Below, piece by piece: positions 1,135-8,858 of a stretch of DNA of 64,000 nt; the first letter of the stretch is position 1; each line of letters starts with the position of its first letter. Source of the stretch: Chryseobacterium sp. Lineage in GTDB: Bacteria; Bacteroidota; Bacteroidia; Flavobacteriales; Weeksellaceae. The notes beneath the pieces are model-generated. The model searched no databases. It worked only from the letters and a program-made list of their open reading frames with translations, and was not told the origin of the DNA. The position numbers and the translations under genes are program-made. The stretch lies in contig JAITUA010000013.1 of assembly GCA_031286615.1 (NCBI GenBank), positions 677,190 to 741,189 of the forward strand, read 5' to 3'.

Positions 1135-1182
1135 ATTACCCAAAGGTGTAATTGATTTTAATTTGTTTTCTGTTGAAATTTG
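1135..1182 (+). promoter_or_regulatory. Predicted response-regulator operator plus promoter for the 1201 operon
   Basis: ATTACCC (1135-1141), 4 nt, then GTGTAATTGATT (1146-1157). The part 1135-1152 is a near-palindrome with ATTAC and GTAAT arms. TTG at 1152-1154 can act as the -33 box. After a 20-bp spacer, GAAATTTG (1175-1182) resembles the TAnnTTTG -7 box. The same arrangement recurs at 4074-4121 with an identical 17-bp gap. The operator just upstream of the -33 box is the usual place for an activator. Elsewhere in the 757-1200 gap, TTG (1059-1061), 21 bp, TAAATTTA (1083-1090) may be a second promoter. The rest is AT-rich with nothing recognisable. Confidence 0.6.
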
Positions 1183-1200
1183 CTACAAACAAAATAAGTC

Positions 1201-1833
1201 ATGAGTATTTCCATCGCGATAGTAGAAGACGAAAAAAACTACAACAATGCGTTGAAGAAAGTAATCAATTACCAAGATGATATGAAGGTAATTGCTCAGT
1301 TCTTTGATGGAAATGATGCCATGCAAAACCTTCCTGCTATTTCCCCCGATGTCGTGATGATGGATATCCAGCTGCAGGATATGCTCGGAATTGAAATCAT
1401 AGAAAAACTGAGAAAAGAAATGCCGAGTACACAGTTCATCATGTGTACCAGTTTTGAGGAGGATGAAAAGATCTTTAATTCTTTAAAAGCCGGTGCGATG
1501 GGCTATCTTGTAAAAGGAGAAAGTATGGATAAAATCCTCTCTTCTATCCGGGATGTATACCAGGGCGGAGCTCCTATGAGTTTTTCCATTGCCCGAAAAG
1601 TTCTCAAACATTTTGAAAGAAAGCTTCCGGAAATTAAAGGGTTTGATGAACTTACAGAGCGTGAAAAGGAAATTCTTGAACTTCTTTCAGAGGGACTTCT
1701 TTATAAAGAAATCGCGGACAAAAAATGTATCAGCATTGATACGGTAAAAAAACACGTCGGGAATATCTACAGAAAACTTCACGTAAACAATAAAGTGGAG
1801 GCAATTAATAAATTTAACCAATCAAAAAACTAA
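1201..1833 (+). CDS. LuxR/NarL-family response regulator
   Basis: A 210-aa DNA-binding response regulator. The receiver domain occupies residues 3-120. Acidic residues E9 and D10 are present, the phosphoacceptor is D55 (VVMMDIQLQD), with T83 and K105 (GYLVKG) at the expected switch positions. The LuxR-type helix-turn-helix covers about 147-207 (LTEREKEILELLSEGL, then DTVKKHVGNIYRKLHV). The partner is almost certainly the histidine kinase three genes downstream, since both belong to the NarX/NarL type. The gene is first in a tight operon (6-bp gap to the next gene). An operator-promoter element lies 18-66 bp upstream and is repeated before the gene at 4142, so autoregulation and control of the downstream trio are likely. 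Family and domains are clear. The stimulus is unknown. Confidence 0.95.
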   Translation: MSISIAIVEDEKNYNNALKKVINYQDDMKVIAQFFDGNDAMQNLPAISPDVVMMDIQLQDMLGIEIIEKLRKEMPSTQFIMCTSFEEDEKIFNSLKAGAMGYLVKGESMDKILSSIRDVYQGGAPMSFSIARKVLKHFERKLPEIKGFDELTEREKEILELLSEGLLYKEIADKKCISIDTVKKHVGNIYRKLHVNNKVEAINKFNQSKN

Positions 1834-1839
1834 GAAACA

Positions 1840-2664
1840 ATGGAAAAAGAATTGTCTGATTTTAAATGTGCTCTGGAAGCTGCAATTATTGCGATGCAAA
1901 AAGAAGGAACTATTAAGGACTTCTATGAAATGAAGGAGTTTACGGAGCGTGAGCAATGGATAAAGGATTATATTACAAAGAATGGGGTAAATTTTTTCTT
2001 AACCCATCCTATAGGAGATGACGAATTTTTAAAAAACAGAGCTTTGTTTGAGCAGCGGGCTCCTGATATTAGCCAGGAATTATACATAAATTTTCAATTA
2101 TTTGAAAACCTTGTTAGAGACCATTTGAATGAAGGGTATACAATAATGAAAATCTCTTTTAGAGAACTTACAAATAGTACAATTAGTGAATTTTCCAGGA
2201 TGATGCCTGAAAATCAATTATCACTGAAAAGTATAGAAGGATACTTGTATGCAAGTCTTTCCTTCCATGAAGCGTCAGATACAGCCAAGCCGGATAAACA
2301 TTATTTTGTTTTTAATCTGGATAGATATTATGAGGTAGATCCCAATCAATTAGGAAACTTTGATAGTACGAATTTAGGCAGAACTCTCACTAATGCATCC
2401 AATGACGCTTATGTAGCAAACTCTATACGCTATGAGTTGATTCTCGTAAAACAGTACATTGATAGAATGCACATGTATCTGGAAGGCTGCCTTAAAAAAA
2501 GTATTTCCAGGCTTGAATTCATACCATGTATTGGTAGAAAAAAAACGGTAAGTTTTGGAGGAGGGAAACAGTCAATATATCTTGCAACCATGCCATCAGA
2601 TAATAATAAACAATTATTTAATGCAGATTTTCCATATTACGACCAGGGAAGTTTAGAGCCATAG
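1840..2664 (+). CDS. Unknown protein in the two-component operon
   Basis: The gene encodes 274 aa with no signal peptide and no membrane segment, so it is probably cytoplasmic. I do not recognise the family. The N-terminal 60 residues are acidic and helical. A central part (about 70-190) has alternating aromatic and polar stretches (ELYINFQLFENLV, HYFVFNLDRYYEVD). The C-terminal 80 residues include a helix (LVKQYIDRMHMYLEGCLKK) and a Gly-rich SFGGGKQ segment that is not a Walker A motif. It lies between the response regulator (6-bp gap) and the 7-TM protein (1-bp gap), so it is co-translated with the signalling genes. It may modulate the kinase or bind a ligand, but this is position-based inference only. 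Confidence 0.75.
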   Translation: MEKELSDFKCALEAAIIAMQKEGTIKDFYEMKEFTEREQWIKDYITKNGVNFFLTHPIGDDEFLKNRALFEQRAPDISQELYINFQLFENLVRDHLNEGYTIMKISFRELTNSTISEFSRMMPENQLSLKSIEGYLYASLSFHEASDTAKPDKHYFVFNLDRYYEVDPNQLGNFDSTNLGRTLTNASNDAYVANSIRYELILVKQYIDRMHMYLEGCLKKSISRLEFIPCIGRKKTVSFGGGKQSIYLATMPSDNNKQLFNADFPYYDQGSLEP

Positions 2665-2665
2665 G

Positions 2666-3286
2666 ATGCTTATTACAATTTACTATATAATTTCTTTTAT
2701 TGTCATAATAAAAGGTATCATAGTTTTGAGAGGAAGAAAATTATCCTCTCAAGACTATTTTTTGTTGTATCTGATCGTAAATTTTGCAATAGATTTTTTT
2801 TCAGAAATTAATATTATTTCAACCAGATCAATTCAGTATAACTATCTGAATCTTTTCAATAGTTTTTATTTTATCATTTTTTATTTTCGACACATTAAAA
2901 ACAAGAAGATGGCGGTTGCAATATCTGCAATCGTTTTAATAGTAACAGGATTGAATATTGAACTTTTTTATGTTGATAAATATAATTTGAAGATTGCTAT
3001 CACATATTGTGTTATCAATATACTGCAGGTTTTGTATTGGTGCAGTTATAAATTAAACAATATTAATAAATCGAAAATTACAGACGATCCTATTTTTTGG
3101 ATTTCAACATCGATACTTTTGTGGAGCTGTTTTTTTCTTTTCAGAATTATTCCCATGTATCTGTTGAATGAAATTGATAAACCATTTTTAAAACTGTTAA
3201 AACAAATATTAAATGTAATCAATATTGTATGCGGTGGTTTATTTTATATTGCTTTACATAAATATAACTCAATGGAAAAAAAATGA
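2666..3286 (+). CDS. Seven-helix membrane protein, candidate sensor partner
   Basis: A 206-aa integral membrane protein with about seven hydrophobic segments (roughly residues 1-20, 29-48, 66-80, 89-108, 114-134, 146-170, 176-200) joined by short loops. It carries no known catalytic motif. The start codon follows the previous stop by one base, and its end overlaps the kinase start by 4 bp (ATGA). Translation is therefore coupled to the histidine kinase, which itself has only one membrane helix and no sensory domain. I infer that this protein supplies the membrane sensing part. Families of small multi-helix proteins paired with NarX-type kinases are common in Bacteroidota, but this one has no name known to me. 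Confidence 0.8.
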   Translation: MLITIYYIISFIVIIKGIIVLRGRKLSSQDYFLLYLIVNFAIDFFSEINIISTRSIQYNYLNLFNSFYFIIFYFRHIKNKKMAVAISAIVLIVTGLNIELFYVDKYNLKIAITYCVINILQVLYWCSYKLNNINKSKITDDPIFWISTSILLWSCFFLFRIIPMYLLNEIDKPFLKLLKQILNVINIVCGGLFYIALHKYNSMEKK

Positions 3287-4071
3287 AGTCTTTACCTTCA
3301 GAAATAAAACTTATTTTTTTAATCGCATTACTTTTAGTTGTGCTATTGGTTGCTTTTACAATTTTCGTTGTATTAATGTACAATAGAAAACAGCTTCTGT
3401 ATCTGAAAGAACAGCAGCTTAAAGAATCAGAATATCAGAACCAGATCCTTCAGAAAGAACTCGAAAAACAAAAAGTTCTTGAGCAGGAACGTGAACGTAT
3501 TTCTCACGATATGCATGATGATCTGGGAGCAGGAATTTCTGCACTGAAACTTCAGGCAGAATTTCTAAAGCAGAAAGCACAAGATGATGATCTGCAAAGC
3601 GATATTGATGAACTTTTGAAAACTTCAGAAGAAATGAATATTTCCATGCGGGAAATGCTGTGGAGTTTGAACTCAGGAAATGATACTTTAGGCAGCTTTA
3701 TCGATTATGCGATATCGTATACCGGAAATTTTTTAAAGAAAACAAAAATAGTACTGCTTTCAGAATGTGAAGATATCACAGCAGAAACTTCAATTTCTAC
3801 TGAAATGAGACGTAATCTTTTTCTTTGTTTAAAAGAAGCCGTGAATAATGTATACAAACACAGCCATGCAAATACATTGAAACTCTCATTCTCACAGGAA
3901 AAAAATAACTTTTCTATGAAAATATCAGATAACGGAATCGGGATTTCTGACAACCAAAAAGAAGGGAATGGCCTCAGAAATATGAAAAGAAGAATGAATG
4001 AATTATCCGGTGAATGTCATATTTCATCTGAAAATTCCGGAACCTGTCTGGTTTTTAAAATAATAATATGA
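3283..4071 (+). CDS. NarX-type sensor histidine kinase, minimal form
   Basis: A 262-aa kinase. One transmembrane helix (about 9-33) is followed by a coiled coil rich in Lys, Glu and Gln (36-72). Next comes the HisKA_3 dimerisation/phosphoacceptor helix with H78 in ERISHDMHDDLGAG. The HATPase_c domain occupies about 165-262, with the N box CLKEAVNNVYKHSHAN and G boxes SDNGIGIS and GNGLRNMKRRM. There is no periplasmic or cytoplasmic sensory domain, so input must come from a partner, plausibly the 7-TM protein whose gene overlaps it by 4 bp. The target is expected to be the LuxR-type regulator at 1201. The stop codon is immediately followed by the operator of the next unit. Confidence 0.93.
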   Translation: MKSLPSEIKLIFLIALLLVVLLVAFTIFVVLMYNRKQLLYLKEQQLKESEYQNQILQKELEKQKVLEQERERISHDMHDDLGAGISALKLQAEFLKQKAQDDDLQSDIDELLKTSEEMNISMREMLWSLNSGNDTLGSFIDYAISYTGNFLKKTKIVLLSECEDITAETSISTEMRRNLFLCLKEAVNNVYKHSHANTLKLSFSQEKNNFSMKISDNGIGISDNQKEGNGLRNMKRRMNELSGECHISSENSGTCLVFKIII

Positions 4072-4073
4072 AA

Positions 4074-4121
4074 ATTACCCCTTTGTGTAATTGATTGGTG
4101 TGCTTTTTAGAAGGAAATTTG
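4074..4121 (+). promoter_or_regulatory. Second copy of the predicted operator-promoter, upstream of the 4142 unit
   Basis: ATTACCC (4074-4080), 4 nt (CTTT), GTGTAATTGATT (4085-4096), a 17-bp gap, then GAAATTTG (4114-4121). Compared with 1135-1182, all bases outside the 4-nt centre of the 23-bp site are identical, and the gap to GAAATTTG is the same. The site ends 46 bp before the ATG at 4142, against 44 bp for the 1201 gene. The flanking DNA is not similar, so this is conserved geometry and not a recent duplication of the whole region. Confidence 0.65.
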
Positions 4122-4141: not shown

Positions 4142-4471
4142 ATGAAAACTCTTATTAATGACAGTATTGGAGATTTGGAAGCTGCTTTAAAAAACAACAC
4201 TGATCTTCAGGAGAAATTTAAAACCAATCCTGTAGAAGCTATGAAAGAGGTGGAAATAAGAAACCCCAAAGACACCGATTATTGGATCTACAGAATTATC
4301 GTGATTATGCTTGGGCTGGCGGTAATTACCATTATAGCAGGACTTATTCTTATTGCTTACTGGAATGATGGAGAAAGTAAAAATAATCAGCTGGTAACAA
4401 TTTTTGCAACCATTTCATCAGGAGCTATTGGAGCCTTAGCCGGCCTTTTATCTCCTACACCAAGAAAATAA
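4142..4471 (+). CDS. Small membrane protein with leader-like N-terminus and helical hairpin
   Basis: The gene encodes 109 aa. Residues 1-40 form an amphipathic helix with the pattern LEAALKNNTDLQEKFKTNP then EA, which resembles the Nif11/nitrile-hydratase-type leader helix (L..L..D..L...F..DP.EA). Two hydrophobic segments follow, about 52-77 and 85-104, with the Gly/Ala-rich end GAIGALAGLLSPTPRK. Small proteins ending in a similar GALAGLL-SP hairpin occur in other bacteria but have no assigned function that I know. The gene is first in the unit controlled by the second operator, 30 bp before the next gene. The resemblance to RiPP leaders is weak, and no maturation enzyme lies nearby. A small membrane adaptor or effector is an equally good reading. 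Confidence 0.7.
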   Translation: MKTLINDSIGDLEAALKNNTDLQEKFKTNPVEAMKEVEIRNPKDTDYWIYRIIVIMLGLAVITIIAGLILIAYWNDGESKNNQLVTIFATISSGAIGALAGLLSPTPRK

Positions 4472-4500: not shown

Positions 4501-4815
4501 ATGAAAAAATTAACACTGAAAGTTACAATTGAAGGAGGTAGTTCCCAATTAGGAATTTACTATAAATTAGTTAAAAGAGGACACACCTCTAACCCCGTAC
4601 AAAAAAAACAAAGTTTTGAAGAAGTTTTTACTGATCTCAATGGAGACTATACATTATATATAGGGGGCGGTAATGCTGATTCTGACAAAAGGAGAGCTAT
4701 TATAAGTCTTATTTTTGATGATAAAGAAATTGTATTAGATAAAGACTTATCATACGCAAACCCATCGACTCAAAAAGGTAAACATATTTATGCAGAATAT
4801 TATTTTAAAGCTTAG
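4501..4815 (+). CDS. Small beta-rich protein, unknown
   Basis: The gene encodes 104 aa with no signal peptide or membrane helix. Alternating strands (KLTLKVTIEGG, QLGIYYKLVKRG, GDYTLYIGGGN, RAIISLIFDDKEIVLD, HIYAEYYFKA) suggest a compact beta-sandwich. I do not recognise the family. It lies 29 bp after the small membrane protein and 3 bp before the outer-membrane-type gene, so all three are probably one transcript under the response regulator. Being apparently cytoplasmic between two envelope genes, it may bind one of its neighbours or a small ligand. This is inference from position. Confidence 0.7.
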   Translation: MKKLTLKVTIEGGSSQLGIYYKLVKRGHTSNPVQKKQSFEEVFTDLNGDYTLYIGGGNADSDKRRAIISLIFDDKEIVLDKDLSYANPSTQKGKHIYAEYYFKA

Positions 4816-4818
4816 GAC

Positions 4819-5967
4819 ATGAAAACAAATAAACTCTTACTATTTACTTTAATATTGGTATTCTTCAATATGTTGACCCTCCATGGTCAGAATAATATTG
4901 ATTTAAAGCAAAAAACTAATATTGCCCGTAAAACTGTAAACAGTAGTAAAACTGGTAACTGGAATGATGTATTTACCAATTTTATGCAGCTTGCAGCCAA
5001 AAACCTCACAGGTGATAATAAATCTTTTGAATACAAGACAACAATATTTGCTATAAAGAGTGAAGTAGACAGTACATTGCTAATTGACGAAAACTACGTT
5101 AAAGAAAATTTTTCAAGAAATTTTCAAATAAATATGGGCCTGAAATTAGACAATGATTATAAGTTCGACGGATTTTCATACGGTTTTGATTGGGCTTTGG
5201 TCAACAAAAGGGATCTAAGCGTAAATACATTGGTGAATGGAGAAACAGCAAAATTATATGAGAAGTATTTTGAAATACTTACAACAGCCAGGGAAAGATA
5301 TAATGCGGATTTAATTAAAAATGACGATCCGGACAAAACCAAAAAAATAAATCAGATACAAAACGCAATAAGTAATAATGCCGATGAATATATTATTCCA
5401 ATAGATCTGTTCCCAAAAGATTTTATAAAATACTTACCATCCGATTATCAGGATACTAGAAAATATTTCCTTGAAGTATATGAACAAGAACTTGATGCTA
5501 TTAAAAGAAAGCCATTGTTGAAAATTGGTTTTAATAGTAACTTTCAAAAAAATACAAAATTTTTAGATGAGTTTGATGCCAATTTGGTTTATCTGCAAGG
5601 ATTGAAATCTAAAAACGGAAGTAAATTGGAAATAGACTTCCGAAATCAGTTTAAAGCAAAGGACAGTATCACAACATCGGTTATAAAAAGAAAGGAGTTT
5701 TCATCACAATTAGGATTGAATATTTCAATTTGGGAAACGAAAGAAAAATCTATCGTAGAGCTTAAACCTAATTTTGAATATAAAAGAATTGTTTCAGGAA
5801 TAATGACTGACGAAAAAAATGACCAGTTCCTGGCCAATGCAGATTTAAGAATAAGAATTTTAAAAAACCTTTGGGTTCCATTGATTTTAAAATATGATAT
5901 TAAAAACAATAATCTTTTTGGCTTCTTAAATGTCAGTTTCAATTTTGATGCAATGAAAAAAGAATAG
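4819..5967 (+). CDS. Exported protein, probable outer-membrane beta-barrel C-terminus, unknown
   Basis: The gene encodes 382 aa. A Sec signal peptide (residues 1-24, cleavage after LHGQ) marks it for export. Residues 25-230 are mixed and charged. From about 235 onward the sequence alternates amphipathic strands (LLKIGFNSNF, DANLVYLQGL, KLEIDFRNQF, QLGLNISIWE, IVELKPNFEYKR, LLKYDIKNNNLF) and ends near FLNVSFNF, consistent with a small barrel inserted by Bam. No TonB plug, OmpA domain or enzyme motif is visible. It is last in the 4142 unit, followed by a strong terminator. A sensor-regulated envelope component is the most economical guess; the function is unknown. Confidence 0.72.
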   Translation: MKTNKLLLFTLILVFFNMLTLHGQNNIDLKQKTNIARKTVNSSKTGNWNDVFTNFMQLAAKNLTGDNKSFEYKTTIFAIKSEVDSTLLIDENYVKENFSRNFQINMGLKLDNDYKFDGFSYGFDWALVNKRDLSVNTLVNGETAKLYEKYFEILTTARERYNADLIKNDDPDKTKKINQIQNAISNNADEYIIPIDLFPKDFIKYLPSDYQDTRKYFLEVYEQELDAIKRKPLLKIGFNSNFQKNTKFLDEFDANLVYLQGLKSKNGSKLEIDFRNQFKAKDSITTSVIKRKEFSSQLGLNISIWETKEKSIVELKPNFEYKRIVSGIMTDEKNDQFLANADLRIRILKNLWVPLILKYDIKNNNLFGFLNVSFNFDAMKKE

Positions 5968-6187: not shown

Positions 6188-7483
<1,296 letters not shown>

Positions 7484-7571: not shown

Positions 7572-8858
7572 ATGTCAGACAACAAAGTAATATTGAATTA
7601 CGACGGTAATTCATATGAATATCCAATCGTGGATAGTACTATCGGAGACAGAGGGATTGATATTTCAAAATTAAGAGACCAGACAGGTTTGATCACTCTG
7701 GATTTAGGTTACAAAAATACAGGAGCTACTATTAGCGACATCACTTACTTAGACGGAGATAAAGGAGAATTATTCTACAGAGGTTATCCAATTGAGCAAA
7801 TTGCTGAAAAATCTAACTTCACTGAAGTAATGTATCTTTTATTACATGGAGAATTACCTACTCAGGATCAGTTTACTTCATTCGACAACAACATTAAAAA
7901 ATATAACTTCATCGCAGACGAAATGAAAAAGATCATTGATGTTTTTCCTCGTTCTGCTCACCCTATGGGAGTTTTATCTTCTTTAACTTCTGCTTTGACA
8001 GCTTTCAACCCGAAAGCAGTTAACGTAAACTCTAAAGAAGAAATGGATCACGCAGCTGAGCTAATGATCGCTAAGTTCTCTCACCTTTGTGCTTGGACTT
8101 ACAGAAAAACTCAAGGTTTACCATTAAACCACGGTGATAACAACCTAAACTACGTAGAGAACTTCTACAAAATGGCATTCAGATTACCAAACGCTGATTT
8201 TGAAATCGATCCGGTAGTTGTAAATGCTTTAGATAAATTATTAATCCTTCACGCAGACCACGAACAAAACTGTTCTACTTCTACAGTAAGAATGGTAGGT
8301 TCTGCTCATACAGGTCTTTTCGCTTCTATCTCTGCTGGAGTATCTGCACTTTGGGGACCACTTCACGGTGGTGCTAACCAGGCAGTAATCGAAATGCTTG
8401 AACTCATCGAAAAAGATGGTGGTGATGTATCTAAATATGTTGCTAAAGCTAAAGATAAAGCTGATAACTTCCGTCTAATGGGATTCGGACACAGAGTTTA
8501 CAAAAACTTCGACCCAAGAGCGAAAATTATCAAGAAAGCTGCTGACGATATCCTTAAAGCATTAGGTATCCAGGATAAAGCTCTTGACATTGCAATGCAG
8601 TTAGAAAGAGTAGCTCTTGAAGATGAGTACTTCGTAGAAAGAAAACTATATCCAAACGTAGACTTCTATTCAGGAATCATCTACAGAGCGTTAGGAATTC
8701 CTACAGAAATGTTTACAGTAATGTTTGCATTAGGAAGACTTCCGGGATGGATTTCTCAATGGAAAGAGATGAGACTGAAAGGAGACCCAATCGGAAGACC
8801 AAGACAGGTTTACCAAGGTGCTCAGGAAAGAAACTACATCGATATTGCAAGCAGATAA
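7572..8858 (+). CDS. gltA: Citrate synthase (type II)
   Basis: The gene encodes 428 aa, typical for bacterial type II citrate synthase, which condenses oxaloacetate and acetyl-CoA at entry to the TCA cycle. Seen: the N-terminal beta domain, YRGYPIEQIAEKSNF, the catalytic His regions LHADHEQNCSTSTVRMVGS and WGPLHGGANQAV, GFGHRVYKNFDPRAK, and the C-terminal active-site Asp region KLYPNVDFYSGIIYRALGIP. The gene follows eno by 88 bp, which pairs lower glycolysis with TCA entry, and a strong terminator follows it. Confidence 0.98.
   Translation: MSDNKVILNYDGNSYEYPIVDSTIGDRGIDISKLRDQTGLITLDLGYKNTGATISDITYLDGDKGELFYRGYPIEQIAEKSNFTEVMYLLLHGELPTQDQFTSFDNNIKKYNFIADEMKKIIDVFPRSAHPMGVLSSLTSALTAFNPKAVNVNSKEEMDHAAELMIAKFSHLCAWTYRKTQGLPLNHGDNNLNYVENFYKMAFRLPNADFEIDPVVVNALDKLLILHADHEQNCSTSTVRMVGSAHTGLFASISAGVSALWGPLHGGANQAVIEMLELIEKDGGDVSKYVAKAKDKADNFRLMGFGHRVYKNFDPRAKIIKKAADDILKALGIQDKALDIAMQLERVALEDEYFVERKLYPNVDFYSGIIYRALGIPTEMFTVMFALGRLPGWISQWKEMRLKGDPIGRPRQVYQGAQERNYIDIASR

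Follow-up and report, generated by a model that had tools for sequence, protein, structure and literature searches.

Which promoters does a two-component system control when it lies beside an operon of its own strand, and through which DNA site? The question is raised by a locus of Chryseobacterium sp. (assembly GCA_031286615.1, contig JAITUA010000013.1, positions 677,190 to 741,189 of the forward strand); the window is this whole stretch of 64,000 nucleotides, and positions are counted from its first letter. Two + strand units lie between the end of a ribosomal-protein gene (3-212), which we take to encode L17, and genes at 6191-7483 and 7572-8858, presumably those of enolase and citrate synthase. 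The first unit encodes, in order, a response regulator (RR), two proteins denoted X and Y, and a histidine kinase (HK); it is followed by the target operon, with genes for proteins of 109, 104 and 382 amino acids (aa). Each unit is preceded by the same operator-promoter block, and the comparison with relatives described below makes it very probable that the neighbouring regulator binds to both blocks.

Two operator-promoter blocks

The sequence ATTACCC-N4-GTGTAATTGATT-N17-GAAATTTG is present without a mismatch at 1135-1182 and at 4074-4121, and each copy is made up of a dyad, a TTG, 20 bp and the box GAAATTTG. The 23-bp site ends 44 bp before the ATG at 1201 and 46 bp before the ATG at 4142. 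No further copy of the full block is found in the window when up to three mismatches are allowed, and there are no matches in 100 dinucleotide-preserving shuffles of it. In register, the two regions are 67% identical across the 48-bp block, compared with 34% in the preceding 200 bp and 29% in the following 150 bp. The preliminary description of this DNA had proposed two identical blocks, agreeing in their fixed bases, internal distances and spacing to the ATG, within surroundings that are not similar, and both points hold. It had placed the dyad over the -33 TTG; this needs correction, as operator 1 (the dyad ATTACCC-N4-GTGTAAT at 1135-1152, upstream of the RR gene) instead abuts the TTG of promoter 1 (1152-1154), with one base in common.

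Promoter 1 continues with the predicted -7 box GAAATTTG at 1175-1182. Promoter 2, upstream of the target operon, has the same arrangement on the + strand, with operator 2 (the same dyad) at 4074-4091, the -33 TTG at 4091-4093 and the -7 box GAAATTTG at 4114-4121. The block has the features of a flavobacterial sigma-A promoter, namely a TTG near -33, a TAnnTTTG-like box and a constant spacing; the consensus of the -7 box, in the part of PMC9723704 that bears on it, is TAnnTTTG at -12 to -5. In the window the box starts with G and departs from this consensus. Since the block fits the flavobacterial -7 box, the starts are predicted by simple arithmetic to lie near 1187 and 4126, and the centre of the dyad near -43.5.

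In the whole genome (4.88 Mb), the pattern ATYACMC-N4-GKGTAATTG with zero or one mismatch occurs at these two places only, if the second place read in antisense is not counted; it approaches background once two or three mismatches are allowed. The short core ATTACCC-N4-GTGTAAT with up to two mismatches gives 34 matches, as does its reversed control, and is therefore at background; in the window, up to three mismatches give seven matches against 5.7 expected. A third exact copy of the short core lies within a reading frame at C3:368285. Thus the claim that the motif would not be scattered over the genome is borne out for the longer site and fails for the short core, and the signal resides in the longer site together with the promoter.

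Conservation of the sites in relatives

Of the 35 genomes examined in the same genus, 29 contain a close orthologue of RR, as does one genome of another family. For the comparison, 91 fetched stretches, together with the window, were oriented by RR. The genus set consists of 66 loci with an RR identity above 79% and a kinase match, including the window and a few loci with broken genes; individual loci are denoted by L and a number. Site 1, upstream of the regulator, matches the refined site with at most one mismatch in 64 of these 66 loci. Site 2, with at most two mismatches, is present in 53 of the 57 loci that have a target operon behind the kinase and in none of the nine that do not (p 2e-8). 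By comparison, the best match over 132 shuffled windows has at least four mismatches. The distance from the TTG to the -7 box is 20 bp in all 64 site-1 promoters and in 52 of the 53 site-2 promoters. The two sites are each conserved in a form of their own, the sub-consensus sequences being ATTACACAAAAGTGTAATTG and ATCACCCTTTTGTGTAATTG.

Site 1 with at most one mismatch is also found in 79 of the 80 named loci, and a site with at most two mismatches lies 2.6-4.2 kb downstream in 60 of them. The RR DNA of 44 named loci is identical to none that had been used earlier, and all 44 have site 1, 42 of them exactly. The expectation that the motif would be conserved upstream of orthologous genes has thus been confirmed both at the regulator and at the target operon.

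In five loci (L076, L078, L080, L100 and L167) site 1 is located approximately 370-386 bp upstream of RR rather than approximately 66 bp, and a -7-like box follows it at the normal distance; either a long RR leader or an unseen small gene would account for this. The regulator genes of L064, L105 and L186 contain internal stops or frame breaks. In L186, where the regulator gene has three stops and there is no kinase match, site 1 is retained exactly.

Occurrence of the operator with the regulator

The refined pattern ATYACMC-N4-GKGTAATTG was chosen after the genus scan and then run on 197 genomes of the family, in which the regulator was scored as present on an RR match at E 1e-60. The exact pattern occurs in 47 of the 197 genomes and its reversed control in none. 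All 47 belong to the 62 genomes with RR, and none to the 135 without it (Fisher 1.4e-32); the Fisher value is only a guide, because the relatives are not independent and the pattern had been refined on the genus first.

The link between regulator and operator appears to extend across genera. In two genomes of genus g29 (L139 and L182) the recognition helix reads KKQA, compared with KKHV or KKHI elsewhere, and the operator is ATTCC/GGAAT; this altered operator is present at site 2 in both, while at site 1 it is complete except for the first base in L182 and represented by the right half only in L139. In four distant loci (L141-L144) the usual place is occupied by ATACC-N8-GGTAT. In another family (L085 and L145-L149; RR identity 61-64%), site 1 is exact in all six loci, and site 2 is absent from all five that could be tested.

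The regulator, the kinase and the genes between them

RR (1201-1833, + strand) is a NarL/LuxR-type response regulator of 210 aa, with Pfam matches to Response_reg (1.9e-23) and GerE (2.1e-16), and HK (3283-4071, + strand) is a histidine kinase of 262 aa, matching HisKA_3 (1.1e-12) and HATPase_c (3.7e-9), with one N-terminal hydrophobic segment as judged by eye. Both proteins have the domains of a NarL/LuxR-type two-component system. The phosphorylatable aspartate of RR, D55, is present in 89 of 89 aligned relatives, and the phosphorylatable histidine of HK, H78, in 84 of 84. Pfam recognises no sensor domain in HK. The preliminary description had assigned the regulator and the kinase to one unit; both are there, but it had missed the genes at 1840-2664 and 2666-3286, which sit between them and make the first unit one of four genes. 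Two genes lie between RR and HK in 85 of 92 loci (counted by script, with L105, where they are broken, set apart).

X (1840-2664, + strand) has 274 aa, belongs to no known family and ends in the tail YYDQGSLEP. X is predicted to be a folded protein of approximately 220-300 aa, and the structure model, although of good quality (pLDDT 84), points to no function. Its best-kept part is the C-terminus: among 79 X proteins, the tail is strictly of the YDxGxLxP type in 40 and of the CP[PNTQ] type in 25, and the other 14 show a looser likeness or none. The X of the window has a weak match to Imm44 (E 0.012), as do two of 71 X members at E 0.01. Y (2666-3286, + strand) is a membrane protein of 206 aa with hydrophobic segments assigned by eye. 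It has no Pfam or NCBIfam match in the window, and a comparison of 70 Y proteins with Pfam gave a single weak match, to PAP2. In the Pfam scan of the seven window proteins, no family scored above the cut-off in X, Y or the three target proteins.

X and Y probably form the input module of the system, because HK has no recognised sensor domain and because, in three relatives, X-Y is replaced by a long N-terminal part of the kinase. These loci of genus g45 (L134, L137 and L185) lack X-Y, and their kinases are 617-668 aa long, with 350-400 extra N-terminal residues. In L137 this part matches 7TMR-DISMED2 just below the Pfam cut-off (21.1 of 22 bits, E 3e-4); no such match is found in L134 or L185. 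7TMR-DISMED2 is an extracellular sensor domain. The fused kinases give the best hint that X-Y may stand in for a sensor. Within the proposed module, X would be the recognition part and Y the coupling part. Y also tracks residues 1-62 of HK, with a partial rank correlation of 0.31 given RR identity (0 of 300 permutations as high), compared with -0.01 for the HK core (159 of 300 permutations).

A further protein with an X-like tail was seen in L072, where a 201-aa protein behind the kinase (3033 from RR, in the oriented locus) ends in FDRNGLCPPGC and precedes an exact site and a barrel operon; it is perhaps a second, solo X.

The target operon and sites in trans

The three target genes, all on the + strand, encode a small membrane protein of 109 aa with hydrophobic segments seen by eye (4142-4471), a protein of 104 aa with no Pfam family (4501-4815), and a protein of 382 aa with a signal-like start and a predicted outer-membrane β barrel (4819-5967). 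In the model of the 382-aa protein (pLDDT 65, pTM 0.48) there are 12 long strands with a helical insertion, and its best Foldseek matches are outer-membrane barrels (FapF, E 2.2e-5, and autotransporters), with a large rmsd. In this genome the target is probably a short envelope operon that encodes an outer-membrane barrel; the earlier reading of a three-gene envelope set is backed by the hydrophobic segments and the signal-like start, both judged by eye, and by this low-confidence barrel model. The cluster of the 109-aa protein has 27 members at target positions. Target operons of relatives also encode a trypsin-like protease (L073), YLATT proteins (L067 and L070) and a weak pYEATS match (L070; 20.4 of 26.9 bits). 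In L131, a barrel gene approximately 40% identical to the target barrels lies with its small partner, likewise related to target genes, between X and Y, inside the RR operon, and there is no site 2.

In some relatives there are sites in trans, which are single-site readings from the sequence. They precede, among others, a subtilase (L087), amidases (L103, with one mismatch, and L099, with two), relatives of the target proteins (L090, L092 and L093) and one protein of 417-428 aa that L086, L094 and L095 share (likeness by eye). Most have a TTTG-like box 20 bp further on, which is poorer in L086, L088, L089, L094 and L095. The idea of one main target operon fits the present genome but is too narrow for those relatives that hold further sites in trans.

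Two side observations concern the region upstream of the regulator. In L099 and L103 an N-acetylmuramoyl-L-alanine amidase with an SH3 domain and its own near-match site is positioned between the L17-like gene and RR. In the window, a 144-aa lipoprotein-like gene lies at 322-756 on the - strand, and such a gene precedes the regulator in several relatives.

A conserved core with exchanged ends

The components of the locus differ greatly in their conservation. Among 60 intact genus loci, the median identity over 500 sampled pairs is 88% for RR and 70% for HK, compared with 34% for Y and 24% for X. The X proteins fall into 12 BLAST groups and the target genes into 24 clusters (one of which is a citrate-synthase cluster that slipped through), and X groups and target types occur in many combinations. 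One pair illustrates the pattern at the DNA level. Between the window and L056, identity is 80-93% in RR, falls to 42-66% across X-Y and the start of HK, returns to 87-93% from the HK core through operator 2 to the 109-aa gene, drops to 43-57% in the two remaining target genes and reaches 95-97% past them; the two loci therefore differ by two separate cassettes. In L150, X-Y of the L056 type is found together with target proteins of the window's clusters. RR, the kinase core, the operators and the promoter spacing are kept, and cassette exchange affects X-Y and the target genes.

Proposed mechanism and alternative explanations

The locus is likely to be a self-regulating two-component envelope switch with a fixed core and an exchangeable input and output. 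In the proposed mechanism, X-Y would sense the signal, with X recognising it and the membrane protein Y coupling it to the membrane segment of HK. HK would phosphorylate RR, which would bind the dyad (centred approximately 43 bp ahead of the start and adjoining the -33 TTG) and activate both promoters, that of its own operon and that of the envelope operon behind the kinase; RR would therefore raise its own level and switch on the operon behind the kinase. The earlier proposal of a self-regulating system with an adjacent target operon gains support from the conservation of the sites and their occurrence with the regulator. The lack of a recognised sensor domain in HK would make X and Y the input, and the divergence of X-Y would mean that the signal or the partner differs between species; both steps are weaker than the preceding ones. 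More tentatively, it is possible that X-Y is a species- or strain-specific module recognising a molecule of a competitor, a phage or kin, that X is a new sensor family with a YDxGxLxP or CPP-type tail, and that the locus is a natural plug-and-play arrangement, in which new output operons are dropped in behind an unchanging kinase, regulator and operator.

Several observations weigh against this interpretation. No site 1 was found in L173 and L175, and L062, L163 and L180 have a target operon with no good site 2; in L072, the fourth exception at site 2, an exact site lies 893 bp further on, ahead of the operon. The exact site is missing from 15 of the 62 genomes that have RR: some of them (L062, L080, L101, L133, L140, L161 and L163) have sites with one mismatch at the usual place, L173 and L175 have site 2 only, and the remainder have altered dyads or none. 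The pairing of an altered helix with an altered operator is known from two related genomes only, and the exact altered pattern occurs in three of the 197 genomes, L139, L182 and one without RR. As Y and the start of HK adjoin on the DNA, exchange as a single piece could yield their correlation. Finally, a dyad adjoining the -33 element would suit a repressor too.

RR could accordingly bind both sites and yet repress, with the signal relieving or strengthening the repression. The base shared by the dyad and the TTG would be compatible with this, and both promoters would come under like control; however, a dyad centre near -43.5 is at a usual activator place of the NarL/LuxR-type family (the lux box lies near -42.5), and the first base of GAAATTTG does not fit TAnnTTTG, a deviation that weak promoters in need of an activator may show. 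We consider repression unlikely. Binding of RR to the two sites is itself predicted from sequence, which leaves room for another transcription factor to occupy them while RR acts elsewhere, but the restriction of the exact site to family genomes with RR, its association with the RR locus, which extends to other genera and to another family, and the altered operator that accompanies an altered recognition helix make this very improbable. The two similar blocks, 2.9 kb apart, could also have arisen by chance or been left behind by a recent local duplication, but these readings can be practically dismissed in view of the empty shuffles, the unlike flanks and the separate sub-consensus of each site.

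The role of X-Y is a different matter. X-Y could be a cargo or immunity-type pair rather than a sensor, with the kinase sensing through its own membrane segment. The weak Imm44 matches of X point in this direction, as do L131, which shows that cargo can sit inside the RR operon, and the high divergence of X-Y, which is typical of immunity genes. Set against this are the retention of X-Y between RR and HK in most loci, the three loci in which the kinase has an N-terminal part in its stead, and the way in which Y tracks the start of HK, so that we find a cargo or immunity role rather doubtful.

Comparison with known systems

The locus resembles the NarL/FixJ-family systems with HisKA_3 kinases (NarXL, UhpAB and the MadRS and MctRS models) in the domain make-up of RR and HK, in the dyad operator upstream of the promoter and in having an operon under its own control. 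It differs from them in the two genes between regulator and kinase, in the kinase without a recognised sensor domain, and in the exchangeable input and output. Its NCBIfam scores fall far short of the thresholds for the named members (MadR, 120 of 300 bits; MctS, 92 of 700), and it is therefore no named member of this family. In the agr-type quorum systems of staphylococci, a conserved regulator and target promoter are combined with divergent input genes, much as here; in contrast, X is a predicted folded protein and not a peptide precursor, the kinase core is conserved, and no exported signal was found.

The target operon of LiaFSR, liaIH, begins with a small membrane protein, as does the target operon here. 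In the part of PMC3543457 drawn on, LiaFSR further shares with this locus a HisKA_3-type kinase with little sensor, a NarL-type regulator and a separate membrane protein beside the kinase. However, Y matches no LiaF model in Pfam or NCBIfam and X has no counterpart; here the envelope is Gram-negative, the cargo is a predicted barrel and the input genes differ between species. The resemblance would be a likeness in working only. The YLATT proteins, the trypsin-like protease and the weak pYEATS match in target operons of some relatives recall the NTP-dependent conflict systems, as far as these are covered by the part of Kaur et al. 2020 (PMC7159879) considered here, and the pYEATS/YLATT families of Pfam. 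No conflict-system NTPase (MoxR/vWA or STAND core) was found by Pfam among the seven window proteins.

Implications

With these results, a two-component system of the Bacteroidota gains a concrete predicted operator, promoter and target, and X emerges as a large unnamed protein family. The locus also offers a natural example of a signalling core and DNA site that stay constant as the two ends are swapped. This raises two questions: by what route inputs reach a kinase that has no sensor domain, and in what way new genes enter a regulon by landing behind a fixed site.

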